DNA of 64,000 nt from Aureococcus anophagefferens (Eukaryota; Sar; Pelagophyceae; Pelagomonadales; Pelagomonadaceae), in NCBI RefSeq assembly GCF_000186865.1, contig NW_008705564.1, forward strand, positions 1,737,168 to 1,801,167, read 5' to 3'. This document shows, piece by piece, positions 3,001-59,759 of this stretch. Position 1 is the stretch's first letter, and each line of letters begins with the position of its first letter. The notes under the pieces are model-generated. The model did not search any database, was not told the DNA's origin, and worked only from the letters and a program-made list of their open reading frames with translations. The translations under genes were made by a program, and so were the position numbers.

Positions 3001-6000
3001 CGCCTGCCGCGACTCCCACGTCTTCGCGCGCCACGCGGCGAAGCTCGTGGGCGCGCTGCGGGGCCTGGGCGAGCGGCGCGAGCTGTCCTACGGCGCGACG
3101 GTCGCGCTCGACGCGTCCTTGCGGAAGTTGCTGCGCCTCGCAAGAGCGAGAAGCCACCACTGGCGCACGTTCTGCTCGCGGCCGCGCCTCGAGCGGCCCG
3201 GCGACGGGGCGAACGACGACGAGGCGCGGGGCGGGACCATCGTCATCGACGGCGACGACGACGCGCGGGACGACGACGACGCCGCGTCGCTCGCGGACGC
3301 GTCGGACGACGAAACTGACGGCGACGGCTTCGCCCGCGCGCCCTGCTGCGCCGTGACGCTCTTCCGCCTCTGCGTGCGGCTCCCGCGGGGGTCGGCGCGC
3401 GACGCGGCGCTCGAGCTGCTGGAGCGGTGCGCGCGGCCGCGGCCAACGGACGACGACGACGGCGCGCGCGAGGACGCGCGCGCGGACGCGGAGCGCGACG
3501 GTGCGCGCCGCGCGGAGACGCGCCACCGGCGGCGCTTCGCGCGCTTTTTAGGCTACGACAAACCGGCGGCGGCGGCGGCGCCGGGCCTGAGCCGCGCGGC
3601 GTGCGGTCTGGTCGACGCGCTCGGCGCCGAGGCCGCGCGCGACTGCCTCGCCTTCTCGGACGCCGTCGTCCTCGACGGCGACACGCGGGGCTGCCGCGCG
3701 CTGGGCGCGGCGGTGCTGCGCCACTGCTGGGCCGCGCTGCCCGCGGCCGCGCGGCGCCGCGTGCTCGAGGCGACGGCGCGGGCCGCGCCGCGCGCGCTCC
3801 GGCGCTCGGGCGGGTCGCGCGGCGCGGAGCTGCTGGCCGTCGTGCGCCTCGGGGCCGCGGCGGCGCTCGACGACGAGGCGGCGGCGCCCAAGGTCCTCGG
3901 CGGCGACGCGCTCGACGCGCTCTGCCGCGCGGTCGCGCGCGGCCTCGACGCGGGCGGCGACGACGACGGCGACCGCCGCGCGGTCTACGCGGCGACGGAC
4001 GCCTTCTTCGGCGGCGGGCCGCGCTACTTCGACTACGACGCCGACGCCCTCGCCCCCGGCGCGGATCGGCCGGACCTGGCGCTGATCCGGGCCGCCGCGG
4101 AGGCGGACGCGTCGTCGGCGCGCGACGTCGACGCGCGCGGCGTCCTCGACGACGTCGGCGACGACGGCGACGCGGCGCTCGCCGCGGACCGCGTGACCTA
4201 CGTGGTCCAGAGCGGCGAGGCCGGCGAGTCCGCGGGCGTGGTCCGGGTCGTCGGCGCGGACGCGCGCGTCGTGCCCGAGCGCGGCGCGGCGCCGGCGAGC
4301 CCGCGGTCGCGGTCCCGCGCGCCGTCGGCGCTGTCCGAGGCGACGGCGGAGCCCGCGGAGGAGGCGCCGCCCGCGCCCAAGGCGCCCGTCGCGTCGGCGC
4401 CGCGGCGCCACCGCCGGGGCCCCGCGCTGCAGGCGCTCGAGGACGTACGCAAGGGCGCGCGGTTCACGGAGAGCTGCTCCATCGCCCAGCTCCGCGGCGT
4501 GCGGCGCATCCACGCCATCGAGCTGCGCCTGCGGGAGCCCCGGGGCCGCTACGTGCGGCGGCTGCGCGTCTGGTACGTCGCGCGCGAGGTCGATAGCATC
4601 GGCGAGCTCGCGGTCCCCGCGAACTGGCCCAAGTGGTCCGTCGCGGCGACGGCGCGGCTCACGCGGGGCCAGACGTCCGTGAAGATCCCCCTGCCGGCGC
4701 CCCTCGTCGCCGCGAACCTGCTCTTCGAGTACGAGGACTTTTACCCGCAGCGGACGACGCCCGGCGGCGGCGCGCCGCGCGGCGGCGACCGGGGCCGCGC
4801 GGGCGCCTCCGGGTCGCGGTCCGGCGCCTGCCTCCACTGCCCGCGCTGCGGCCGCGCCGTCACGGACGCCCACGGCGTCTGCCAGCACTGCGGCGAGGTC
4901 GCGTTCCAGTGCCGCCAGTGCCGCCACATCAACTACGAGCGTTTGGACGCGTTCTTGTGCGTGGAATGCGGCTACTGCGCCTTCGGCGACTTCGGCTACC
5001 GGCTCCGGTCCGAGGCGGCGCCGGACGCGCTGGCCATCGCGTCGGCGGAAGAACTGGAAGCCGCGCGGCGGCGGCTCCAGGACCGCGCGGACGTCTGCCG
5101 CGACACGCGCGCGACGCTCCGGCGGTTATTACCGGAATGCGCGCGGCTCGCGCGCTGCGTCGCGGGCCGCGGCGACGGGCCCGACGACGACGACGCGGGT
5201 TTGGCGCGGTGCGGCGGCGCCTGGACGGCCGTCGACGCCGCGTCGTTCGCGCTCGCGGCCGCGGCGGACGCGCGGTCGCTCGGGTCGCCCGCGGCCGCGG
5301 CGCGCGTCGCGGCGGATTTGGGCGGGCTGCTCGCCGTCGTCGCGCCGTCGCCCCCGGTCGTGGCGGCGCTCTTCGACCGCGACCAGGTCCTGGGCTGCGA
5401 CGCGGAGCCCGCGGCGCCGCCGCGGACCGGCGGCGGCCGCGACCGCGTGCTGACGCTCGAGGGCGTCGTGCCCGGCGCGCCCGCGTCGCTCGGCGCGTCG
5501 CTCGCGCGCGCGCGGCTCCGGGGCGAGGGCCCCGGCGGCCGCGGGCTCGCGTCTTTTGCGTTGGGGGGGTCGCGGGTCTTCGCGGCGCCGCCGGGCGGAG
5601 CGACGGCCTTGCTCGCGACGGAGGACCGGCTCGCGCGGCGCGCGGCGCTCCTGGGCCGCGTCGGCGCGCCGCCGGGCGCCTACGGCGCGCGGCGCGACGG
5701 GTCCCTGGCGGCGCTCGTCGAGTCGACGGCGGCGCTGCGCCAGGGCCGCGCGCGGCTCGCGGGCGCGCTCGGCGCCGGCGCGNNNNNNNNNNNNNNNNNN
5801 NNNNNNNNNNNNNNNNNNNNNNNNNNNNNNNNNNNNNNNNNNNNNNNNNNNNNNNNNNNNNNNNNNNNNNNNNNNNNNNNNNNNNNNNNNNNNNNNNNNN
5901 NNNNNNNNNNNNNNNNNNNNNNNNNNNNNNNNNNNNNNNNNNNNNNNNNNNNNNNNNNNNNNNNNNNNNNNNNNNNNNNNGCGGCGGAGTTCGTCGCCGG

Positions 6001-12320: not shown

Positions 12321-13555
12321 ATGGCCCCGACGACGAAGGCGCTCGCCCTCGCGCTGTCGCTCATCCCGAGCCTCTCCTTCCGCGCCCCGGCCGCCGCGCC
12401 GCGGACCTCCACGCGCCGCGCGGCGAACTTTCACGCCGAGGGCGATCTGAGCGGCGACTTCCAGCTGAGCGGCCTCTGGAAGCTCGAGCGGCGGCCGTGC
12501 GTCGACGAGGCGCTCCCCGCGGCCGTGCCCATCCAGCCGTCGTGGTCCGGCTGCCGCTGGACGTCGCCCGCGCGCGCGCGCGTGCTCGCCGACAGCGTCC
12601 TCGTGACGCTCGATTCGAGGGGCGGCTTCTCGACGCCGCCGGAGACGCCCGCGGACCGCGCCGTGCGGGGCCGCTGGTCCTGCGACGGCGCGGAGCTGAA
12701 GATGAGCCGCTTCGGCCGCCACGCCTGCAACGTCGTCGAGACCTACACGGGCAACTACGAGCGCGGCGAAGGGGTGAGCGGCACGATGTTGTTCGGGGCC
12801 GTCGAGCCCGAGTACGCGGGCACGTTCACGATGACGCAGCAGCTCGCGAGCCTCCAGCCCGTGGTGGAGAACGTCAAGCCGAACCGGACCACGCCCCTCT
12901 TCAAGTGCGACCAGATCGTCGGCAAGTGGAGCCTCGACTTCTCGTCCGAGACGTCCATCTCCGCGTACGAGGTCGTGCTCTACGGCAACCGCACCTGGGA
13001 GACGACGTCGGACCTGGGCAACGGCGCCAAGCTCGCGGGCAAGTGGAACCTCTTCGACTCGGGCATCGACCTCACGTCGGGCATCGACGGCTCCGGCGGG
13101 CGCATCTGGCTCTGGCTCCGCCGCTTCGGCGGCTCGACGGCAGTGACGACGGGCGTGCACCTCAACCACGACAGGCTCTACATCGGCGCGCTCACGGCCG
13201 CGCCGACGCCGCCGGGCGCCGACGACGACGCGCCGCCGTCGCCGCGCCGCATCAAGGGCCAGGTCGCCATCGGCTGGTCCACGGAGCCCGCCTTCATCGG
13301 CTCCTTCCGCATGAAGCTGTGTGGAAATCAACCACTCGTTTGGGGGGTCCCCACCAAACTTCAGAACTCTCTATCTCGGCCAAATCGAAGTCGATTCGGC
13401 TGATTTTTGGACGAATCGATTGCTCTCATCGAGTTCTCGAAGCACAGCGAAAGAGTCTGGTCCAAATCGGTCGATTACGCGCACATTGAAGTCGGGTTGA
13501 AGATTTGATTTCCACACAGGCATGAAGCCCGTCTGGGACGACAACAACGACTGAG
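12321..13555 (+). CDS. Unknown protein with plastid-type N-terminal targeting sequence
   Basis: Two exons, 12321-13308 and 13521-13555, give 340 residues ending in VWDDNND. The family was not recognised. The N-terminus (MAPTTKALALALSLIPSLS, then FRAPAAAP and a Ser/Thr/Arg-rich stretch) looks like a signal peptide followed by a transit peptide with Phe just after the cleavage point. That is the usual bipartite signal for secondary plastids in stramenopile algae. The mature part has two similar-looking beta-rich segments (around GLWKLERRPC and VGKWSLDFSS), suggestive of a lipocalin-like or duplicated beta-barrel fold, but this is only an impression. The start is the ATG directly before the hydrophobic segment; the upstream in-frame ATG at 12132 is considered leader. 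The last intron is a family B introner with a GC donor, and only 11 codons plus the stop follow it. Confidence 0.75.
13317..13520 (+). mobile_element. Introner element, family B, intron with GC donor
   Basis: This 204-bp element begins CTGTGTGGAAATCAA and ends TTGATTTCCACACAG, near-perfect inverted repeats. It is flanked by an exact 8-bp duplication GCATGAAG (13309-13316 and 13521-13528). The upstream copy supplies a GC donor and the element supplies AG, giving a 212-nt intron (13309-13520). Splicing restores R-M-K-P-V-W in frame. Confidence 0.92.
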
Positions 13556-31388: not shown

Positions 31389-31438
31389 NNNNNNNNNNNN
31401 NNNNNNNNNNNNNNNNNNNNNNNNNNNNNNNNNNNNNN
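31389..31438. other. Assembly gap (50 N)
   Basis: 50 unknown bases directly follow the second minisatellite block. A round length of 50 suggests a placeholder, not a measured size. Confidence 0.99.
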
Positions 31439-42796: not shown

Positions 42797-45206
42797 ATGA
42801 AGCGCGGCGCCTACCCCTACTGGCCCCCGAGCCGCGGGGAGGCGCCGCGCTACGACGACGCGCCCGGCGGGCCGCGGCGCGACGCGTACGGGCGGCCGCC
42901 GCCGCCCCCGGGCGCCCGCGCGCCCGGGCCCGCGCGGGCNNNNNNNNNNNNNNNNNNNNNNNNNNNNNNNNNNNNNNNNNNNNNNNNNNGACAGCCGGCT
43001 CGACGCGCCGCCGGCCCGCGGCGCGCCCGCGCGGTCGCCGCCGCGGCCGCGCGGCGCCGCCGCCGCGGCCGCGGCGCCGCAGCGGGCGCCGCCGCCGCGC
43101 GCGCGCGCGGACGACCGGCGGCCCGCGCCGATCCGGCCCTACCGCGAGGCGGCGGCGCCGCCGCGGCCGCCGCGGCCGCCGAGCCCGCGGCGGCGGCGCC
43201 AGACCGCGGAGGACGGCGAGATCGTGCGGCCGGCGGCGGAGCCGCCCCGCGAGTCCGCGCCGGCCAAGGCGCGCAAGTTCCGGCCCGGCGACAGCCCCCG
43301 GAGCCCCGCGACGCCCGCGACGCCCGCGACGGCGCCGCCGGCGCTCCCGCGGGCCCGCGCGGACTCGGCCGCGTCCGCGCCCGCCGCGCGCGGCCCCGGC
43401 GGCGGCTGGCGGCCGAACCCGAACCGGCCGCGGCCGCGCGCGGGCTCCGCGCCCATGGAGGCCCTCGTCTGGCAGAAGAAGAAGCCCGCGGCGGCGGCCC
43501 CGCGGGGGACGGACACCAAGGTCTTCGCGCCGCGCGCCGCGCCCGCGCCGCCCGACGGCGCCGCCGCCGGCGCGCGCGGCGCCGCGCCGGGCTCGCCGGC
43601 GGCGCCCGGGGCCCTCCCGCGGACCCTGGGCGCCTGCGGCGCGCGGGCCGCCCGCGAGCTCCAGCTCACGCGGGGCGACGTCGACGCGCTGCTCCGCGCG
43701 GCGCTCGCCGGCGGCGACGCCCAGGGCAGCACAAGAGAGCGAAATTCCCAACTTCAAAGGCTCCGATCTCGGCCATTTTCCACTCGTTTCGGCTGATTCT
43801 TGGACGAGCGATCATCTCTCGGAACGGTCTCGAAGCGTGGATGTGATTTCCGTAACGCGCGCGCGTGGAACACTCACGTTGAAGCGACGTTGAATCACCC
43901 TTGTGCTGCCCAGGCGACGCCGAGGCGGCGATCGGCCGCGTCGAGCGCGCCTGCGTGGGCCGCTTCCTGCGGGGCAAGCAGTCGAAGCTCTACTTCCTGG
44001 GCGTCGTCGTGCGCGCGTCCTGCCCCCTCGACGAGCCCCGGCGCATGCGCTTCACCGTGGACGCGGGCGGCCCGCTGCCGGCCGGCGACGGCGACGCGCC
44101 GCGCTTCGTCGAGCTCGCGCAGGGCCAGGTGTCCAACGACTGCGTCGGCGACGCCGAGTTCGCCGCCTGGTGCGTCGACCGAGCGGCTTTCGAACGACGA
44201 CGGATCCCAACTTCAAAGGCTCCTCTCTCGGCCATTTTTCACTCGTTTCGGCTGACTTTTGGACGAGCGATCATCTCTCGGAACGGTCTCAAAGCGTGGA
44301 TGCTTTTTCTGGAACGCGCGCGCGCGGAAAGATTACAGCGACGTTGAATCTCGCAGGCGGAGCCGCGCGCTGGAGCACCTCACGGACGAGGAGCTCGCGC
44401 GGCCGCTCGACGCGCCGGAGGCGGCGCTGAAGCCGAGCGACCTGCGCCCGCTCGCCGTGCCCGTCTGCGGGCCCTGGGTCGGCGCGGCCTTCGACGCGCC
44501 CCTGGACCTCTCGAAGGCCCGGGGCCGCGACTCGCCGGCGTTGCTGCTCGACGACGCGCCGCTCCGCGACGACCTGCCGCCGGCGTTTTTGGACGAGCTG
44601 CCGTTCCGCCTCGACGACGCGGACGACGACGTCGCGCTCCTCGACATCGACGGCCTCGGCGCCTTCGACGACGCGCCGGCCGAGGCGCTCGCCGCGCCGC
44701 CGGAGGCGGGGCCCCGGCGGCGGCGGCGGAAGATCCCCAAGTCCATCGTCGACGAGATCTGCGACTCCGACGGCGGCTCCGTCTACGAGGACGTCGACGA
44801 CGACGACGCGTCCGACGACGTCCGCGCGGCGTCGCGCGCCGCGCTCCCGGAGAAGAAGCCCGGCGCCAAGGACCCGCCGACCGTCGTGAGCGACGAGTCG
44901 CCCGTGTCCACGGTCCGCGGGCCCCACAGCGACAGCTCCTTCCTGGAGCCGCCGGACACGCCGCCGCCGCCGGGCCTCGGCGCGGACCGGAGGCGGAAGC
45001 GCAAGGAGAACCTCGCGGACCTCGAGAACCGCGTGCGCCGCATCGGGACCAAGGTCCGCGTCGCGCGCGCGCCCGGCACGCCCCGGGCCGAGGTCATCAA
45101 GATCCCCTCGGGCATGCGGACCTTCGTCCTCGTCAAGATGCTCGAGGGCGCCGACGGCGGCAAGGAATGCCTCTACATGCCCTCGGAGCTCATCCTCGAC
45201 GAGTAG
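42797..45206 (+). CDS. Unknown basic/acidic low-complexity protein with two introner introns
   Basis: Exons 42797-43713 (containing a 50-base gap), 43914-44169 and 44357-45206. Start MKRGAYPYWPPSRGEAP. The N-terminal third is Pro/Ala/Arg-rich and disordered. A short ordered domain around exon 2 has RGKQSKLYFLGVVVRASCP, FTVDAGGPLPAG and VELAQGQVSNDC. The C-terminal part is acidic (LDDADDDVALLDIDG, SVYEDVDDDDASDD) with a basic nuclear-type stretch (RRRRRKIPKS) and a final ordered piece (MRTFVLVKMLEG). The family was not recognised; a nuclear or chromatin-linked role is only a guess. Both internal introns carry introner sequence, the first intact and the second decayed, and they join the frames exactly (phase 1, then phase 2). 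Confidence 0.65.
42940..42989. other. Assembly gap (50 N) in the low-complexity gene
   Basis: 50 unknown bases follow a Pro/Arg-rich stretch. The frame before the gap (frame 2) and after it (frame 0) differ, so the true gap size is not a multiple of three off from 50, or a small intron is hidden. Confidence 0.99.
43722..43913 (+). mobile_element. Introner element, family A, intron with GC donor
   Basis: 192 bp, ends CAGGGCAGCACAAG and CTTGTGCTGCCCAG. The exact 8-bp duplication is GCGACGCC (43714-43721 and 43914-43921). The upstream copy gives a GC donor and the element gives AG, so the intron is 43714-43913 (200 nt). Splicing restores G-D-A-E-A in frame. The AGCG and GGACGAG core matches the UBR4 and urocanase copies closely. 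Confidence 0.93.
44170..44356 (+). mobile_element. Decayed family A introner as intron in the same gene
   Basis: The core (CCCAACTTCAAAGGCTC through GGAACGCGCGCGCGCGG) is clearly family A, but both terminal repeats are lost or altered (3' end is TCTCGCAG). The only donor that keeps frame is GTGCGTCG at 44170, giving a 187-nt intron that retains W at the junction. Flanking 8-mers are not duplicates. It appears to be an older copy now spliced by evolved sites. Confidence 0.75.
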
Positions 45207-51629: not shown

Positions 51630-53446
51630 CTAGGCGAGGTCCGCCGCGACGGCGTCGTGGAGCGCGCCGTCGCGGATGAGGTCCCGGACGGCGGCGATGT
51701 CCGGCGCCATCGCGCGGTCGCGGTCCCACTTGGCCGCGACGCCGCGGACGAGCGCGTGGACGCGCTCGAGCACGGGCGTCGTGCGCAGGGGCCGGTGGAA
51801 CTCGATGGCCTGGCAGGCCGCGAGGATCTCGATGGCGACGACGTGCTCGACGTTCGCGACGACGTCGAGCGCCTTCCGCGCCGCGAAGCCGCCCATGGAC
51901 ACGTGGTCCTCCTTGGCCGCGGACGTGCTCAGCGAGTCGGCCGACGCCGGGTGGCAGAGCACCTTGTTCTCCGACGCGAGCGCGGCCGCCGTGCAGTGCG
52001 CGATCATGAAGCCCGAGTTGAAGCCGCCGTCGGCCGTGAGGAACGCCGGCAGCTCCGACAGGTCCGGGTTCATGAGCCGCTCCGTGCGGCGTTCCGAGAT
52101 GTTCGCGAGCTCGGCGACGCCGATGGCCAAGTAGTCGCAGGCCTTGGCGGGGTACTCGCCTAAAAAAAACGGCGCGGTGATCGCTTCGCCCGCGAGGCGC
52201 GCTCGGAAAACCGCCGCCGTCGAAAAGAAGGACGCGGGCGCTCCGCGCCGTGGAAGTTGCCGCCGGAGATGATGACGGCGCCGCCGCCGGCGTAGCACGT
52301 GTCCCTCGCCGACTTGGTCCGCGTGCCCGCGGCGCCGCGGCCCGCGAGCCTCGCGCGGAGCTCCTCGTTCTCCGCGCGGAGCCGCTCGACCTCGTCCGTC
52401 GGCGCGGCCTTGGGCGGCGGCGGCGGGTCCGGCGGCGCCGCGGCCGGCGCGTCCGGCGACTCGCCCGCGAAGATCATGGGGTTGTCCGTCGCGCTGTTGA
52501 TCTCGACGTCGAGCAACCCCTCGACGAAGGCGATGGTGTCGTGGGCGACGCCGTGGACCTGGGGCGCGCAGCGCATCGTGTAGGGGTCCTGGACGCGGCC
52601 CGCGTAGGCGTGGGACGTCCACAACGCCGACGGCGGCAGCAGCAGCTTCCGCAGCCGCGCCGCGACCGCCCCCTGCCCCGCGTGCGGCCGCGCGGCGTGG
52701 ATGCGCGCGTCGAAGGCGCGGTGCGTGCCCTTGAGCGCCTCCACGGTCAGCGCGCAGGCCACGTCGGCGGCCAGCGCCGCGTACTTGGCGCGGCAGACGG
52801 CCTCCGCGCCCAGCGCGGTCATCATCTGCGTGCCGTTGATGAGCGCGAGGCCGTCCTTCGGGCCCAGCGCGAGGGGCTTGAGATGTCGCGCCGCCAGCAG
52901 CTCGGCGGCGTCGACCTGGCTCGCCCCGTCGGGGCCCCAGCACTGGCCCTCGCCCATGAGGCCCAGCGCGAGGTGCGACAGCGGCGCGAGGTCGCCGGAC
53001 GCGCCGACCGTGCCCTGGGACGGGACGACGGAGATGGCGTCGGCGTTGTAGGCCTCGACGTAGGCCTCGAGCACGCCGATGGACACGCCGCTCCGGCCCT
53101 TGGCGAGCACGTTGATGCGCAGCGCCAGGAGCATGCGCGTGCGCCGCGGCGGCAGCGGCGCGCCGACGCCCGCGCTGTGGCTCCGGATCAGGTTCTCCTG
53201 GAGCTCGCTGAGCTTCGCCGGCTCGACGACGACGTTGCTGAAGAGGCCGAAGCCCGTGTTGATGCCGTAGGCGACGTCGTTCGACTCGACGAGCGCGTCG
53301 ACGACGGCGCGGCTTTCCTTGCAGCGCGCCCAGGCCTCGTCCGAGAGGCCGATGGTCTGCCGGCGCGGCGACTTCGGTCCCTCGGCGAGGGCGAGGAGTT
53401 GTGCGGTTGTCAGAGAGGCTCCGTCGAGGAGGAAGAGGCTGGACAT
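51630..53446 (-). CDS. HAL: Histidine ammonia-lyase
   Basis: Exons 53446-52249 and 52159-51630, 575 residues. The MIO-forming Ala-Ser-Gly is at residues 149-151 in [39 protein letters not shown] and [43 protein letters not shown] and [14 protein letters not shown] follow the family. It deaminates histidine to urocanate. The 89-nt intron (GC donor, poly-T/AG acceptor) falls between FHG and EYPAKA and moves the frame correctly. Between MIF and GGNFHG is an insertion of about 60 residues (329-389) with a proline run and coiled coil, absent from ordinary enzymes. A 66-bp copy of an internal coding segment lies directly at the start codon. The first gene of a histidine-degradation cluster, divergent from urocanase. 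Confidence 0.93.
52160..52248 (-). other. 89-nt GC-AG intron in histidine ammonia-lyase
   Basis: On the - strand the donor is GC (52248) in GCGCGGAG and the acceptor is a run of eight T followed by AG (52160). The intron splits the Gly codon of FHG. Removing it joins GGNFHG to EYPAKA, a contiguous stretch in other HAL proteins. Without it the frame hits a stop. No flanking duplication. Confidence 0.88.
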
Positions 53447-53510
53447 GCCGTAGGCGACGTCGTTCGACTCGACGAGCGCGTCGACGACGGCGCGGCTTTC
53501 CTTGCAGCGC
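53445..53510. repeat. 66-bp direct duplication of HAL coding sequence at the HAL start codon
   Basis: 53445-53510 is identical to 53262-53327, at a spacing of 183 bp. The duplicated part encodes residues [19 protein letters not shown] of HAL. It lies upstream of the annotated start and is in the same frame, so it could extend the N-terminus if an upstream start existed, but a TAG stops it soon. It may be a local duplication or an assembly artefact. Confidence 0.85.
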
Positions 53511-53649
53511 TGCTTGGGAGGCTACTCGAGTCCTACCATGCGCAATTGATTGATCTTCTGTGGCAATTCTGTGTCAAGAATTCACCAATCACACACCAAC
53601 TTTGTCGTCTTCGCACGCCGACCGCGCCGCCCGACGCGCCGCTCTGACC
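53447..53649. promoter_or_regulatory. Shared intergenic region of histidine ammonia-lyase and urocanase (divergent)
   Basis: Only about 200 bases separate the two start codons, so both promoters must lie here or inside the genes. The part 53511-53640 is visibly AT-richer. A shared region would permit co-regulation of the first two steps of histidine breakdown. No known operator motif was identified. Confidence 0.4.
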
Positions 53650-56046
53650 ATGTGCCCGTCGCCCGACAAGGCCTCCATCGCTCCGCCGACGGACAAGCCG
53701 GAAAAGAACGCCTGGGCGCAGCCGGACCTCGAGGACTTTAGCATCCTGCGCCGCGGCATCCCCGACGAGCTGCCGCCCGCCAATCTGGGCCGGCGCGACC
53801 CGACGGTCCCCCACGCGCCCGTGCGGACGCCGAACCTGACGCCCGAGGGCGAGACCCTGGCGCTGCGCAACGCCCTGCGCTACTTCGACGCGAAGCACCA
53901 CGCGACGCTCGCGGCCGAGTTCGCCGCGGAACTCCGAACGGACGGCCACGTGCACATGTACCGCTTCCGGCCGACCTACGAGCTCAAGGCCTACCCCTTC
54001 GCCAAGTTCCGCGCCGTCTGCAGGTGCGACGAGGCGGCGTGCATCCTGCTCATGGTCATGAACAACCTCGACCGGCGCGTCGCGCAGTACCCGCCAGGGC
54101 AGGACAAGAGAGCGAAATTCCCAACTTCAAAGCCTCATATCTCGGCCGTTTTCCACTCGTTTCGGCTAATTTTTGGACGAGCGATCATCTCTCGGAGCGC
54201 TCTCGACGCGTGGATGCTTTTTCCGGAACGCGCGCGCGCGGAACGCTCACGTTGAAGCGACGTTGAATCACCCTTGTGCTGCTCAGGTACCCGCAGGAGC
54301 TGATCACGTACGGCGGCAACGGCTCCGTGCTGTCGAACTGGGCCCAGTTCCTGGTGCTGGCCAAGTACCTCTGCGAGATGACGACGGACCAGACGCTGAG
54401 CATGTACAGCGGCCACCCCATGGGCCTCTACCCGTCGTCGCGGCACGCGCCGCGCATGGTCGTCACGAACGGCATGGTCGTGCCCAACTACTCGTCCAAG
54501 GCCGACTACGCGCGCATGTACGCCCAGGGCGTGTCCATCTACGGCCAGATGACGGCGGGCTCCTACTGCTACATCGGCCCCCAGGGCATCGTCCACGGGA
54601 CGACGATCACGGTGCTCAACGCGGGCCGCAAGTACCTCGGCGTCGACGACCTCGCGGGCCGCGTCTACGTCTCCTCGGGTTTGGGCGGCATGAGCGGCGC
54701 GCAGCCCAAGGCCGCGGTCATCACGGGCGCCGTGGGCGTCATCGCCGAGGTCGACGAGGCGGCCCTGCGGAAGCGCCACGCGCAGGGCTGGGTCGACGAG
54801 GTCTGCGACGGCGGCGCGGAAGCGTGCGTCGCGCGCGTGCGGGCCGCGCGCGCCGCGAGGCGGCCGCTGTCCATCGGCTTCCTCGGCAACGTCGTCGACC
54901 TCTGGGAGGCTTTTGCGGCGGCGCCCGGCGAGCTGCTCGTGGACCTCGGCAGCGACCAGACGTCGCTGCACAACCCGCTCGGCGGCGGCTACGCGCCCGC
55001 GGGCCTGACCTTCGACGCGGGCCGCGCGCTGATGGTCGCCGACCCGCCGGCGTTCAAGGCCGCCGTCGAGGCGTCGCTGCGGCGCCACGTCGCCGCCGTC
55101 AACGCGCTCGCCGCGCGGGGCATGCGCTTCTGGGACTACGGCAACTCGTTCCTCCTCGAGGCGTCGCGCGCGGGCGCGGACGTCCTGCCCGCGGGCGCGG
55201 CGCCGCGCGCGGCCGGCGCCGCGGCGCCGACGGGTTCCGCACCCGACGACGNNNNNNNNNNNNNNNNNNNNNNNNNNNNNNNNNNNNNNNNNNNNNNNNN
55301 NGACGTACGTCCAGGACATCATGGGCGACATCTTCTCGCTGGGCTTCGGGCCCTACCGCTGGGTCTGCTCGTCGGGCGACGCCGGCGACCTCGCGAAGAC
55401 CGACGCCATCGCCGCGGCCGTGCTCCGCGAGGTCGCGGCCGCCGCCAGGGCCGAGGGCGCGGACCGCGTCGCGGACCAGTGCGCGGACAACCTCAAGTGG
55501 ATCGAGGAGGCCGGCGGCCACGGCTTGGTCGTCGGCTCCGCGGCGCGGATTCTCTACGCGGACTGCGAGGGCCGCGCGCTCATCGCGAAGCGCATGAACG
55601 ACGCCGTGCGCGACGGCGTCCTGGCCGCGCCCGTCGTCATCTCGCGGGACCACCACGACGTCTCGGGCACCGACAGCCCGTTCCGCGAGACGTCGAACGT
55701 GACCGACGGCTCCGCGTTCTGCGCGGACATGGCCGTGCAGAACTGCATCGGCGACGCGGCGCGCGGCGCGACCTGGGTCGCGCTCCACAACGGCGGCGGC
55801 TGCGGCTGGGGCGAGGTCACGAACGGCGGCTTCGGCCACGTCCTCGACGGGTCCGACGACGCGGGCGCCAAGGCCGCGCGCATGCTCCACTGGGACGTGA
55901 CCAACGGCGTCTCGCGCCGCGCCTGGGCGCGCAACGACAACGCGCGCTTCGCCGCGGCGCGGGCCATGAAGGCCGAGCCGAAATTGAAGCTCACGGTGCC
56001 CCACGACGCGGACGACGCGCTCCTGGCGGCGGCCCTCGCGGGCTGA
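53650..56046 (+). CDS. UROC1: Urocanate hydratase (urocanase)
   Basis: Exons 53650-54086 and 54287-56046, with a 50-base gap at 55252. It converts urocanate to imidazolone propionate using NAD+ as electrophile. Landmarks: RTPNLTPEGETLALRNALRY, MYRFRPTYELKAYPF, VAQ-YPQELITYGGNGSVLSNWAQF across the intron, MYSGHPMGLYPS, MTAGSYCYIGPQGIVHGTT, and at the C-terminus DHHDVSGTDSPFRETSNVTDG and ALHNGGGCGWGEVTNGGF. Start at MCPSPDKASI. A family A introner of 192 bp interrupts the gene. Around the gap an extra stretch (ADVLPAGAAP...) precedes TYVQDIMGDIF; this region is uncertain. Closest in style to the animal enzyme. Confidence 0.93.
54095..54286 (+). mobile_element. Introner element, family A, intron in urocanase
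   Basis: 192 bp, beginning CAGGGCAGGACAAG and ending CTTGTGCTGCTCAG. Exact 8-bp duplication GTACCCGC (54087-54094 and 54287-54294). The GT donor comes from the duplication, the AG acceptor from the element; the intron is 200 nt. Splicing restores Q-Y-P-Q-E-L, which is the normal urocanase sequence at this point. Confidence 0.94.
55252..55301. other. Assembly gap (50 N) in urocanase
   Basis: 50 unknown bases in the urocanase gene. The reading frame before (0) and after (1) differ, so the gap is not its true length. By comparison with other urocanases it covers the start of the RYPSYVQDIMGDIF-like segment. Confidence 0.99.
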
Positions 56047-56210
56047 GCGTGTCCATAACATCCTGCGTGCAAAGCGCGCTGAGACTCATCGAGGTCGCCG
56101 ACCACGACCGGCCCTACCTTCAATATAAGGTTAATGAAGTCAGATTGCATTTTCCGCTTGTGGCAAAGCTATTAGGTTTGATGCCTTCCGAGCGTTGACA
56201 GCGAACCGCA

Positions 56211-58509
56211 ATGGCTTTGCACACACTCCTACGGTCGCGCCTAGCCACGGCACATGCGCGCGGTTTCGCTGTGCGCGCGCTGCCGCCGCTCGGCACGCCA
56301 TGCCTGCGCGAACAGGCAAAACCGGTGCCCGAGGCCATGTTCGGCACGCCAGCGCTCGACGCCATCGTCGCCGATTTAGTGGACACGATGCGCGACGCCA
56401 ACGGCGCGGGCATCGCCGGCCCCCAGATCGGCGAGGGCTGGCGCATCTTCGTCGTGGAGGGGAGCGGCGCGAACCCGCGCTACCCATACAAGCCGAAACT
56501 ACCGCTGACGGTCTTCGTCAACCCGGAGCTCGAGGTCGTGGACGAGGCGCCCATGGAGATCTTCGAGGGCTGCCTCTCCATCCCCGGCGTCCGCGGCCGC
56601 GTGGCCCGCGCGTCCAAGGTGCGCTGCGCCGCGCGGCGGCCCGACGGGTCGAGTTTCAGCGTTCTGGCGGCGGGCCACGCGGCCGGCACGCTGCAGCACG
56701 AGCAGGACCACCTCGACGGGATCCTCTTCCCGGACATCGCGACGCCCGGCGGCCTCGTGCTCGCCGACGCCTTCGACGAGTACCACCGCGACGCGTTTTT
56801 TGCGTACGCCGCTCGGCTCAACGACGCGCACCCGGAGCCCTGGGTCGTCGAGGCCGCGCGCGGGCCCGCCGTCGCGGCGTCGACGACCACGCGCTACGCG
56901 CCGACGCTGACCTGGACCGGGGCCGCCTTCGAGCGGGACGTCGTCGTCGCCGTCGACGCGGGTGGCCGCGTCGCGTCCGTCGAGCGCGGCCGAAGCGACG
57001 GCGCGCGGCTCCCGGGCGCCGTGCTGCCGGGCTTCGTCAACGCCCACTCCCACGCCTTCCAGCGGGGGCTCCGGGGCCGGGGCGAGACCTACGCCCTGGA
57101 CGACGCGGCGCGGCCGTCGTTCTGGACGTGGCGCGAGGCCATGCGCGGACGTCCGCGTCCCCGAAAAAACTTCCGAGGGCACGTCGCTCTCCCTAGGTAC
57201 GACCTCGTCGAAGGCCTCGACTCCGTGGACGCCTTCCGCGCGGAGACGCTCGCGTGCTTCCGGGAGATGGCCGCGGCGGGCATCACGACGGTCGGCGAGT
57301 TCCACTACTTCCGCCACGGGCCCGGCCGGTCCTTCGAGCACGATTTGGCCGTCGTCGACGCGGCGCGAGAGGCGAACGTGCGCGTCGTGCTGCTCGCGGC
57401 GCTCTACGAGCGCGGCGGCTTCGGCGGCGAGGCGCTCGGCCCGGGCCAGCGGCGCTTCGCGAGCGGGTCGCTCGAGGCCTACTGGGCCGCGCTCGACCGC
57501 CTCGCGGGCGTCTGTGTGGAAATCAAATCTTCAACCCGACTTCAATGTGCGCGCAATCGAACGATTTGGACCAGACTCTTTCGCTGTGCTTCGAGAACTC
57601 GACGAGAGCAATCCATCCGTCCAAAAATCAGCCGAATCGACGTCGATTTGATTGAGATAGAGAGTTCTGAAGTTTGGTGGGGACCCCCCAAACCAGTGGT
57701 TGATTTCCACACAGGCGGACGTCGTCGGCGACGCCGAGGGTACGAGGCGCGGCGACGGGCTCGGCGTCGTCGCCCACAGCCTGCGGGCCGTGGCGCCGGG
57801 CGACGTCGCGGCGCTCGCCGCGGGCGCGCGAAACCGGGGGCTGCCCTTCCACCTCCACATCGAGGAGCAGCCCAAGGAGGTCGCCGACTGTTTAAAGACG
57901 CACGGCGTCACGCCCATGCGCCTCCTGCTGGACCACGCGGACGTGAGCCGCGCGACGGCCGTGCACTGCACGCACACGGACCCCGGCGACCTCGAGGCCT
58001 TTCTCGCCAAGGGCGGCCGCGTCTGCGTCTGCCCCCTGACCGAGGCGTCGCTCGGCGACGGCGCCTTCGGGCCGCTCGACGCGTCGCGCGGCGCCGTGAG
58101 CCTCGGCGCGGCGCCGGCGTCCCGTCCGAAAACGTCGGCGGAAACGGACCCTTTTTTAGGCACGGACTGCAACGCGCGCGTCGACATGTTCGAGGAGATG
58201 CGCTGGCTCGAGTACAGCCAGCGCCTCGCGAGCGGGCGGCGGGGCTGCTACGCGGCGGCGGCGAGGCGGCCGGAGCTCGCGGCGACGCTCCTCGGCGCCG
58301 CGACGGCCGAGGGCGCCGCGGCGCTCGGCGTCGACGCAGGCGCGCTCGCGCCGGGCGCCTGGGCCGACTTCGCGCTGTTGGATCTGGACGCGCCGGCGCT
58401 CGCCGGCGCGGAGGACGTCCTCGGCGCGGCGATCTTCGGCGGGAGCGCCGAAGGCCTGGTCCTCGACACGTGCGTCGCCGGGCGCTGGACCAAGGGCGGC
58501 TACGCTTAG
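56211..58509 (+). CDS. Peptide deformylase-like domain fused to formimidoylglutamate deiminase (HutF)
   Basis: Exons 56211-57142, 57197-57503, 57715-58105 and 58160-58509, 659 residues. Residues 1-205 are a peptide deformylase-like domain with all three motifs: GAGIAGPQ (65-72), EGCLS (119-123) and HEQDH (163-167), so the metal ligands Cys121, His163 and His167 are intact. From about residue 229 the protein is HutF: YAPTLTW, VNAHSHAFQRGLRG (metal-binding HSH at 279-281), FWTWREAM, EFHYFRHGPG, VVAHSLRAV, LPFHLHIEEQPKEV, GTDCNARVDM and WLEYSQRL. HutF deiminates N-formimidoyl-L-glutamate to N-formyl-L-glutamate. The deformylase part could then release formate, replacing HutG (inference). The join lies inside one uninterrupted frame (56211-57142), without a Met or stop between domains, so it is not a gene-model artefact. 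Two of its introns are 54 nt long and in frame; one is a family B introner. Its TAG overlaps the stop of the convergent hutI gene. Confidence 0.9.
57143..57196 (+). other. 54-nt GC-AG intron in the PDF-HutF gene
   Basis: Donor GCGCGGAC, acceptor CCCTAG. The frame is open through it, but removing it gives WREAM-YDLVEGLDSVDAF, the HutF norm, whereas retention inserts 18 basic residues (RGRPRPRKNFRGHVALPR). It contains a short AT-rich stretch. The length is a multiple of three. Confidence 0.8.
57512..57714 (-). mobile_element. Introner element, family B, opposite orientation, in the PDF-HutF gene
   Basis: 203 bp, begins CTGTGTGGAAATCAA and ends TTGATTTCCACACAG. The interior is the reverse complement of the copy at 13317 (for example GGTCCAAATCGGTCGATTACG there against CAATCGAACGATTTGGACC here). 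Flanking 8-mers are GCGGGCGT (57504-57511) and GCGGACGT (57715-57722), one mismatch. GC donor and AG acceptor give a 211-nt intron (57504-57714). Splicing restores L-A-D-V-V-G-D in frame. Confidence 0.92.
58106..58159 (+). other. Second 54-nt GC-AG intron in the PDF-HutF gene
   Basis: Donor GCGCGGCG, acceptor CCCTTTTTTAG. Removing it joins VSLG to TDCNARVDMFEEM, the normal HutF sequence that carries the catalytic Asp region. Retention would insert 18 residues without a stop. The length is again exactly 54 and the poly-T acceptor resembles the HAL intron. Confidence 0.8.
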
Positions 58510-59759
58510 GAACGCCGGAGCTTTCCGCGCCGGTAGACGCGGTCGAGGAGGTCGAGGCCGAGGTAGTAGGCGAGCTCGCCGGGCCCGTCGACGTCCCAGA
58601 CGGCGAGATCCGCGAGCTTGCCGGCCTCGACGGTGCCGCGGTCCGCGCCCTGCCCGAGCGCGGCGGCGCCGTGGCGCGTGCAGCCGGCGAGCGCCTCCTC
58701 GGGCGTGAGGCCGAAGAGCGTGCAGGCCATGTTCATGACGAGGAGGAGGGAGCAGCAGGGCGACGAGCCCGGGTTGCAGTTCGTCGCGAGCGCCATGCGC
58801 ACGCCCGCGGCGCGGAACGCGGCCACGGGCGGCGTCGCCCGCTCCTTGATGAAGTAGTTCGCCGACGGCAAAAGCACGGCGACCGTGCCCGCGGCGGCCA
58901 TGGCCTCCACGGATTCGGGCGACGCGTACTCGCAGTGGCTGCACTCGAGGCAGCCCCAGCCCGCCGCGAGCTTGCCGCAGTGGAACGCGCCCTGCAGCTG
59001 GTCGCCGTGGACCTTGCACGGCAGACAGAGATCCCGGGCGGCCTTGAAGACGCGGCCCGTCTGCGCCGGCGAGAAGCCGACGCCCGCCTTCTCGCAGAAC
59101 GCGTCGACGGCGTCGACGAGGCCCTCGTCCTTGAGCGGCGCCAGCATCGCGACGACCTCGTCGACGTAGGCGTCGTCGCGGCCTTTGAACTCGCGCGGCG
59201 TCGCGTGCGCGCCGAGGAACGTCGTCGCGACGTCGACGCCGAGCTCCTCGCCGAGGCGCCGCGCCGCCGCCAGCTGCGCGCGCTCGCCCGCGAGGTTCAG
59301 GCCGTAGCCGCTCTTGATCTCGAGGCACGTGACGCCGCAGCGGAGCATGGCCTCGACGCGCGGCCGCGCCGCCGCGACGAGCCCGTCGACGCCGGCGGCG
59401 CGCGTGCCGCCGACGGTGTTGACGATGCCGCCGCCGGCGAGCGCGACCTCCTCGTAGGTCGCGCCCTTGAGTTTCAGCTCCCACTCCGCCGCGCGCGCGC
59501 CTCCGTAGACGACGTGCGTGTGGCAGTCGACGAGGCCGGGAGTGACCCAGCGGCCGCCGAGGTCGACGATTTCCGTCCCGGCGGCGACGCGGCCTTGTGG
59601 CACGGCGGACGCGGGCCCGACGAAGGCGATGCGCTCGCCGGCGACGCCGATCGACGCGTCGAGCACGGCGCCGTAGGGCGCCGATGTGTTGGCGGCCATG
59701 GTGGCAACGCGGCAGTTCCGCAGGAGCAGCGTGAACGGCGCGTCCGCGAGGGCAGACAT
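58506..59759 (-). CDS. hutI: Imidazolonepropionase
   Basis: 417 residues, single exon. Amidohydrolase-fold enzyme that hydrolyses 4-imidazolone-5-propanoate to N-formimidoyl-L-glutamate. It has GLVDCHTHVVYGGARAAEW (metal-binding His80, His82), the family segment EIKSGYGLNLAGER, TTFLGAHATP, KVHGDQLQGA (third His) and ATNCNPGSSPC (catalytic Asp replaced by Asn in the ALATNCNPG motif, as in many HutI). The first 20 residues are short, so cytosolic. It is head-to-tail convergent with the PDF-HutF gene; the TAA and TAG stops share bases (58506-58509). Confidence 0.94.
   Translation of the reverse strand: MSALADAPFTLLLRNCRVATMAANTSAPYGAVLDASIGVAGERIAFVGPASAVPQGRVAAGTEIVDLGGRWVTPGLVDCHTHVVYGGARAAEWELKLKGATYEEVALAGGGIVNTVGGTRAAGVDGLVAAARPRVEAMLRCGVTCLEIKSGYGLNLAGERAQLAAARRLGEELGVDVATTFLGAHATPREFKGRDDAYVDEVVAMLAPLKDEGLVDAVDAFCEKAGVGFSPAQTGRVFKAARDLCLPCKVHGDQLQGAFHCGKLAAGWGCLECSHCEYASPESVEAMAAAGTVAVLLPSANYFIKERATPPVAAFRAAGVRMALATNCNPGSSPCCSLLLVMNMACTLFGLTPEEALAGCTRHGAAALGQGADRGTVEAGKLADLAVWDVDGPGELAYYLGLDLLDRVYRRGKLRRS

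Follow-up and report, generated by a model that had tools for sequence, protein, structure and literature searches.

A peptide deformylase fused to HutF in Aureococcus anophagefferens, and a candidate family of N-formylglutamate deformylases

The window analysed here is a stretch of 64,000 nucleotides from the pelagophyte Aureococcus anophagefferens (contig NW_008705564.1, positions 1,737,168 to 1,801,167), in which one gene joins a peptide deformylase (PDF) domain to formimidoylglutamate deiminase (HutF). The fusion is real, and its gene is of eukaryotic type, interrupted by three inferred introns instead of running as one open frame. Judged by its sequence relatives and by the neighbours of its bacterial counterparts, the gene very probably encodes a bifunctional histidine-catabolic enzyme which converts formiminoglutamate to glutamate, formate and ammonia, its PDF branch replacing HutG. 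It also appears likely that this branch of the PDF family, marked by an RYPY[KR] loop and by Thr at position 129 of the Escherichia coli enzyme, is a metabolic N-formylglutamate deformylase and a second family beside the HutG of PF05013, which would act in trans in bacteria of several phyla, would have been fused to HutF independently at least twice and in both orders, and in the alga and other eukaryotes would let a single protein convert formiminoglutamate to glutamate.

The HutF part is predicted to convert N-formimino-L-glutamate to N-formyl-L-glutamate and ammonia, N-formylglutamate being the established product of HutF. This product would diffuse to the tethered PDF site, where a metal-bound water would attack the formyl carbon and release formate and L-glutamate; the metal chemistry is as established for PDF and amidohydrolases. 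The distinct PDF branch would thereby have taken over the job of HutG. N-formylglutamate is proposed as the substrate from genomic context, and a benefit of carrying both active sites in one chain is presumed.

The fusion gene and its relatives

The spliced reading of the gene, with three introns removed, is 661 residues long with a single terminal stop, and consists of the PDF domain (residues 27-177) followed by HutF (residues 225-656). An ATG at 56211 opens an exon which runs through the complete PDF domain into HutF, and the 109 residues between HEQDH and HSHAF contain neither a stop nor an in-frame Met. The sequence-only reading had described one continuous open frame over 56211-58509 with complete PDF motifs (GAGIAGPQ, EGCLS, HEQDH) followed by HutF. 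The PDF motifs and the HutF start (HSH, FWTWREAM) indeed lie together in the uninterrupted exon 56211-57142, and the numbering given for Cys121 and His163 agrees with our count. The frame of the ATG, however, continues to 59930 as read-through, and VVAHSLRAV is in another frame (open reading frame 57700-58509), so that three splices are needed; with PDF and the HutF start in one exon, the earlier description was wrong in detail and right in substance.

The splice sites were inferred from the HutF alignment, which makes introns 1 and 3 GC-AG and intron 2 GT-AG, the last with inverted repeats at its ends. Intron 2 is absent from the protein of the close homologue P0001, which reads LAGVVGDAEG at that site. 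A second copy of its repeat pair is present at 13319-13517, so that GTGTGGAAATCAA stands at both ends of two elements of about 200 nt (57510-57714 and 13319-13517), with four exact hits against 0.01 expected. The 205-nt intron looks like an introner. Both inferred 54-nt introns (57143-57196 and 58106-58159) start with GCGCGG and finish with TAG, suggesting that GC-AG donors may be frequent in the algal genome.

In Pfam, PF01327 is the only family matched by exon 1 (119.5 bits against a gathering score of 22.8); the HutG family PF05013 gave no match. The window and the aligned fusions, as far as they cover these stretches, have complete PDF motifs I-III (Gln, Cys, HExxH). At the level of narrower profiles, the domain just passes the PDF subfamily NF001159 (126.4 against 125 bits) and stays below the cut-off of the peptide deformylase equivalog TIGR00079 (86.6 against 103.95 bits). 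The HutF part passes formimidoylglutamate deiminase NF006681 of NCBIfam (368.2 against 362 bits) and stays below the cut-off of TIGR02022 (357 against 413 bits). All four HutF motifs with the metal and catalytic residues (HxH, HxHxxEQ, VHxTH, and (S/T)D) are found in the window protein and in P0002-P0016.

According to AlphaFold2, the homologue P0003 (pLDDT 89.2, pTM 0.70) consists of two confident domains connected by a 33-residue low-confidence linker (215-247). The top Foldseek match of this model is HutF 3mdu from Pseudomonas aeruginosa (TMt 0.87), and all 50 matches listed fall on the HutF part. A sequence search of the PDB with the HutF domain of P0003 also puts this structure first (1.2e-59), with the same fold and metal motifs; the solved 453-residue chain has no PDF domain, whereas the algal HutF carries one at its N-terminus. 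Among solved PDFs, the best sequence match of the PDF domain is 5t8z, whose aligned loop is RYPDAP.

A database check for PDF-HutF fusions, which the sequence-only reading had proposed, returned more than chance would give. Among 120 matches listed, P0001-P0016 (578-736 aa, 84-97% query coverage) contain both domains in the order of the window, as read from their sequences; P0012, P0014, and P0016 start inside PDF, and two shorter pieces, P0020 and P0023, are of this kind too. P0012 carries the label of the transcriptome project MMETSP and is assigned by its taxid to Paraphysomonas, a genus of chrysophytes, and P0009 and P0010 come from EukProt. No more than 9 residues precede the first conserved LG-P motif in 7 of the 16 fusions, which leaves no room for a leader in these proteins. 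The reverse order, HutF-PDF, was found in P0021 and P0241 (the latter without its N-terminus), and P0335, predicted on a 309 kb contig, holds PDF, HutF, and HutI in one frame. P0336, which has PDF plus HutF, looks frame-scrambled and was left out. In a scan of viral contigs with P0003, 38 stretches fitted a pattern, and none of them coded for a relative.

A PDF branch beside hut genes in bacteria

Bacterial relatives were sought by scanning genomes with the PDF alignment. Of 583 confirmed loci, 80 bacterial PDF loci were kept, chosen by similarity to an alignment which already held the PDF of P0335 (itself fused to hut genes) and with a search pattern which held NPRYPYK. Hut genes are present in 20 of the 80 loci, all of them among the 39 PDFs with an RYPY[KR] loop and none among the 41 other PDFs (Fisher 1.9e-8). 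At all 20 loci the PDF and its nearest hut gene share a strand, with at most 631 nt between match edges, and six gene orders were seen (U-PDF-F-I, F-PDF-I, F-I-PDF-H, H-U-F-I-PDF, F-H-PDF, and PDF-U), some of them cut by contig ends. A second PDF is encoded elsewhere in 19 of these 20 genomes, the exception being the metagenome-assembled genome G017, and each of the 19 has a PDF beside fmt, suggesting that translation is served by this separate def and the hut-linked copy is left free. Genome G014 has a third PDF (L109), with no fmt match beside it.

The distribution of hutG points in the same direction. Each of the 80 genomes was screened for hutF, with a hand-set minimum of 235 bits, and for PF05013, by which alone bacterial hutG was scored, arginase-type and M20-type enzymes being left out. 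HutF is present in 37 of the 39 genomes with an RYPY[KR] PDF and in 17 of the 41 others; PF05013 lies within 10 kb of hutF in 0/37 of the former, compared with 14/17 of the latter (p 2.1e-10). With the curated hutF cut-off, hutF is found in 27/39 and 16/41 genomes, respectively (p 0.008), and PF05013 lies within 10 kb of it in 0/27 and 14/16 (p 1.5e-9); the exclusion of hutG thus holds, while the co-occurrence with hutF weakens. Within Pseudomonadota only, the corresponding numbers are 0/5 and 14/17.

Residues were compared between 56 hut-type rows (19 linked loci, 19 unlinked loci, 15 forward fusions including the window, two reverse fusions, and one bacterial fusion), the 41 other PDFs, and 19 PDFs beside fmt (def-fmt PDFs); L053, whose gene contains a run of N, does not enter the counts, and L109 does not enter the def-fmt set. 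All 56 hut-type rows keep the catalytic Gln, Cys, and HExxH, and the loop Tyr is found in 56/56 of them against 0/41 other PDFs. The position after this Tyr is Lys in 52 and Arg in four of the 56 rows, and Lys or Arg in 3/41 other PDFs; the loop is absent from 19/19 def-fmt PDFs. Thr occupies the position of E. coli C129 in all hut-type rows and in none of the 41 other or 19 def-fmt PDFs, and Gly, Cys, or Ala occupies that of I128 in 56/56, 1/41, and 0/19, respectively. In PDF structures, positions 125, 128, and 129 of the E. coli enzyme belong to the S1' pocket, into which the Met side chain fits. A more polar pocket with a Lys nearby would suit the two carboxylates of N-formylglutamate, and both the loop Lys and the Thr may contribute to specificity.

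E. coli def and the RYPDAP-type PDFs (5t8z, 5hgw) share with the hut-type proteins the family profile and the motifs G.G.A..Q, EGCLS, and HExxH. Unlike these, the hut-type PDFs have the RYPY[KR] loop, a Leu before a Thr after the loop, Thr instead of Cys, Val, Leu, or Ile at C129, Gly, Cys, or Ala at I128, and a conserved C-terminal extension, and compared with def they adjoin hut genes rather than fmt in 20/39 loci.

In the PDF tree, which included the window with 14 forward fusions and from which about half of the 41 other PDFs were dropped, a single branch (100/93) unites all RYPY[KR] PDFs and separates them from the def-fmt PDFs (100/99) and from the other PDFs. One clade (98/96) comprises the forward fusions, and the reverse fusions fall in another, mixed with the unfused P0132 and P0133; they do not form a clean pair, as P0132 stands beside P0021. 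In the HutF tree, window-type and reverse-fusion HutFs are separated by a 100/100 branch, the reverse-fusion HutFs group with sequences, several of them labelled Myxococcota, and a third group comprises the HutFs of 16/17 hut-linked bacterial loci. Given these different HutF lineages and separate PDF clades, the pairing of this PDF type with HutF arose, or was rebuilt, more than once.

As a separate observation, besides the PDF and its antisense frame the only element common to at least four of the 19 RYPY[KR] loci without hut neighbours is an M24-peptidase-like open reading frame named by eye, found at four of them (L009, L013, L024, and L030).

Alternative explanations

That gene prediction or assembly ran two neighbouring genes together, making the fusion an artefact, is very improbable. 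Long open frames are common at high GC, and the public model P0017, which merges HutU, PDF, and HutF, looks overmerged; nevertheless, a single exon free of stops and internal Met covers both PDF and the start of HutF, the same domain order recurs in 16 homologues, one of which (P0012) bears a transcriptome label, and the P0003 model folds into two confident domains around the low-confidence linker.

The PDF domain could instead be an ordinary organellar peptide deformylase which happens to be fused to HutF and deformylates mitochondrial N-formylmethionine, an alternative already raised in the sequence-only reading and one that we regard as unlikely. Its motifs I-III are complete, the basic N-terminus of the window protein, MALHTLLRSRLATAHARGFAVR, might serve as a mitochondrial leader, and the unfused close relatives P0124, P0126, and P0128 have leader-like N-termini by eye. 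Three PDF matches were found in the algal genome, of which the two non-fused ones have plastid-like leaders by eye, so that the fused PDF might also serve mitochondria, and one Fmt-like gene scores just below the TIGR00460 cut-off (197.6 of 201.5 bits). However, the N-termini of 7/16 fusions are too short for a leader, bacterial members of the same branch adjoin hut genes while def adjoins fmt, the loop and position 129 differ from those of def-fmt PDFs, and the domain remains below the TIGR00079 cut-off. The short N-termini thus disfavour the organellar alternative, and the basic leader of the window and the leader-like unfused relatives are what still speaks for it.

A role in the histidine pathway on another compound is even less probable. 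Here the PDF would, for instance, act on formiminoglutamate directly, or its main substrate would be N-formylglutamate that a formiminotransferase produces from 5-formyl-tetrahydrofolate. The algal genome does contain a divergent glutamate formiminotransferase-like gene (L004, contig C12) with the FTCD_N and FTCD middle domains (PF07837, PF02971), which scores 110.7 bits with the FtcD equivalog TIGR02024, below its cut-off of 221.25, and which stands without a match to the cyclodeaminase domain FTCD_C. In PMC3223725, mammalian formiminotransferase is reported to move the formyl group from 5-formyl-tetrahydrofolate to glutamate at a low rate. Such transfer would provide the PDF part with substrate from a second source, and it would add to the proposed PDF role, not replace it. 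Moreover, hutF is present in 37/39 genomes with an RYPY[KR] PDF, and with N-formylglutamate as the product of HutF, the simplest substrate is N-formylglutamate.

Several of the facts just given, namely the basic N-terminus, the leader-like relatives, the plastid-like PDFs, and the formiminotransferase-like gene, weigh against a dedicated N-formylglutamate deformylase, and others do so as well. The 80 loci are a non-random sample of related rows and many fragmented drafts, in which taxa differ between the groups compared. No hut gene was found in the stretch examined (up to 10 kb on each side) at 19/39 RYPY[KR] loci. PF05013 occurs elsewhere in the genome in 14/17 unlinked genomes with hutF and in 5/20 hut-linked genomes, so that some of them may have both enzymes or use PF05013 otherwise. 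Unfused PDFs group closely with the fusions (13/30 rows in that clade), and in the HutF tree two proteins with HutF alone, P0018 and P0019, fall inside the group of fusions, whether as fragments or through loss. On the other side, the conserved fusions, the reverse-order fusions, the bacterial hut neighbours, the exclusion of hutG beside hutF, the def beside fmt, and the changes near the active site support the earlier proposal that the PDF deformylates N-formylglutamate after HutF.

The histidine cluster and the algal genome

The fusion gene is one of four neighbouring histidine-degradation genes at 52160-59759, namely hutH (-), hutU (+), PDF-hutF (+), and hutI (-), so that the pathway up to N-formylglutamate is encoded in one place (Table 1). 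HutU matches TIGR01228 on two pieces (E 7.1e-64 and 4e-38), each under the whole-protein cut-off, and P0017 also matches it. The gene order of this eukaryotic cluster is like that of bacterial hut operons, and by eye it recalls the bacterial locus L018 (hutH (-), hutU, PDF, hutF, hutI). Runs of N in the window lie at 5783-5980, 31389-31438, 42940-42989, and 55252-55301, the last of which interrupts hutU.

Table 1. Features of the PDF-hutF gene and neighbouring hut genes, in window coordinates
Feature	Position	Strand	Evidence
Exon 1: PDF, linker, HutF start (HSH metal motif, FWTWREAM)	56211..57142	+	open frame; PF01327 at residues 27-177
Peptide deformylase domain, residues 27-177 (GAGIAGPQ, EGCLS, HEQDH)	56289..56741	+	Pfam PF01327 E 1.3e-34, 119.5 bits
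Tyr93-Lys94 of RYPYK loop, diagnostic of hut-type PDF subfamily	56487..56492	+	residue counts
Thr160, equivalent to E. coli PDF Cys129	56688..56690	+	residue counts
Intron 1, 54 nt, GC-AG (inferred)	57143..57196	+	frame and HutF alignment
Exon 2: HutF	57197..57509	+	spliced model
Intron 2, 205 nt, terminal inverted repeat GTGTGGAAATCAA (introner-like; inferred)	57510..57714	+	
Exon 3: HutF (VVAHSLRAV, HLHIEEQ, VHCTH)	57715..58105	+	
Intron 3, 54 nt, GC-AG (inferred)	58106..58159	+	
Exon 4: HutF C-terminal part (GTDCN metal Asp) to stop	58160..58509	+	
hutH, histidine ammonia-lyase, partial frame, probably intron-interrupted	52160..53446	-	TIGR01225 E 3.7e-116, 388.6 bits, below whole-protein cut-off 539
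hutU, urocanate hydratase, at least from 53956 by P0017 model; 50-N assembly gap 55252-55301	53956..56046	+	
hutI, imidazolonepropionase	58506..59759	-	TIGR01224 400.7 bits vs cut-off 298.15

The public A. anophagefferens model P0017 (53956-58035, named urocanate hydratase) matches the window piecewise, with the longer gap-free HutF pieces 99-100% identical. A HutU-PDF-HutF triple fusion was considered on this basis and rejected, as HutU has its own stop at 56046 and homologues with complete N-termini begin at PDF; the triple merge looks like an annotation error.

The sequence-only reading had asked whether such fusions occur in hosts that lack HutG and FTCD, and six-frame searches of the 49 Mb algal genome, introns ignored, gave no match to PF05013 (the control matched in 1/14 genomes) or to FTCD_C (PF04961; the control matched in 2/14 genomes), and a formiminotransferase accompanied by a cyclodeaminase domain was not found. 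An arginase-family gene on contig C3 was rejected as HutG, its three pieces matching agmatinase best and one of them also matching TIGR01227 with 55.9 bits, against a cut-off of 229. Another PDF of the same genome, L003 (contig C48, 33400-33819), which is one of the two with a plastid-like leader by eye, has ETCLALP in motif II in place of EGCLS and keeps HELDH.

Other solutions to the same step are known or have been proposed. HutG of PF05013 has the same proposed reaction and the same place in the pathway and belongs to a different protein family. The FTCD or glutamate formiminotransferase route disposes of the formimino group of formiminoglutamate in another way, using tetrahydrofolate; by comparison, the algal genome has the divergent transferase only. 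An M20-type "alternative N-formylglutamate deformylase" (COG0624, the M20 family) has been proposed for the same missing step and belongs to a different COG. According to PMC3223725, the COG0624 protein of Streptomyces avermitilis gave no deformylase activity. No paper joining "peptide deformylase" with "formimidoylglutamate" or "N-formylglutamate" was found among open-licence papers in PMC. What would be new here is the enzyme family for the step and the bifunctional architecture, the folds and the reaction being already known.

Peptide deformylase is known from textbooks for its part in protein maturation and serves as a target of antibiotics. Members of the branch described here are called "peptide deformylase" wherever the source gives a name, so the claim, which can be checked by sequence signature, would correct annotations. 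If it is true, a PDF branch was recruited to amino-acid catabolism, which would be a new function for the fold; it would provide a final step missing from histidine-degrading bacteria that carry no hutG next to their hutF, and would give the HutF-type route its ending in a eukaryote.

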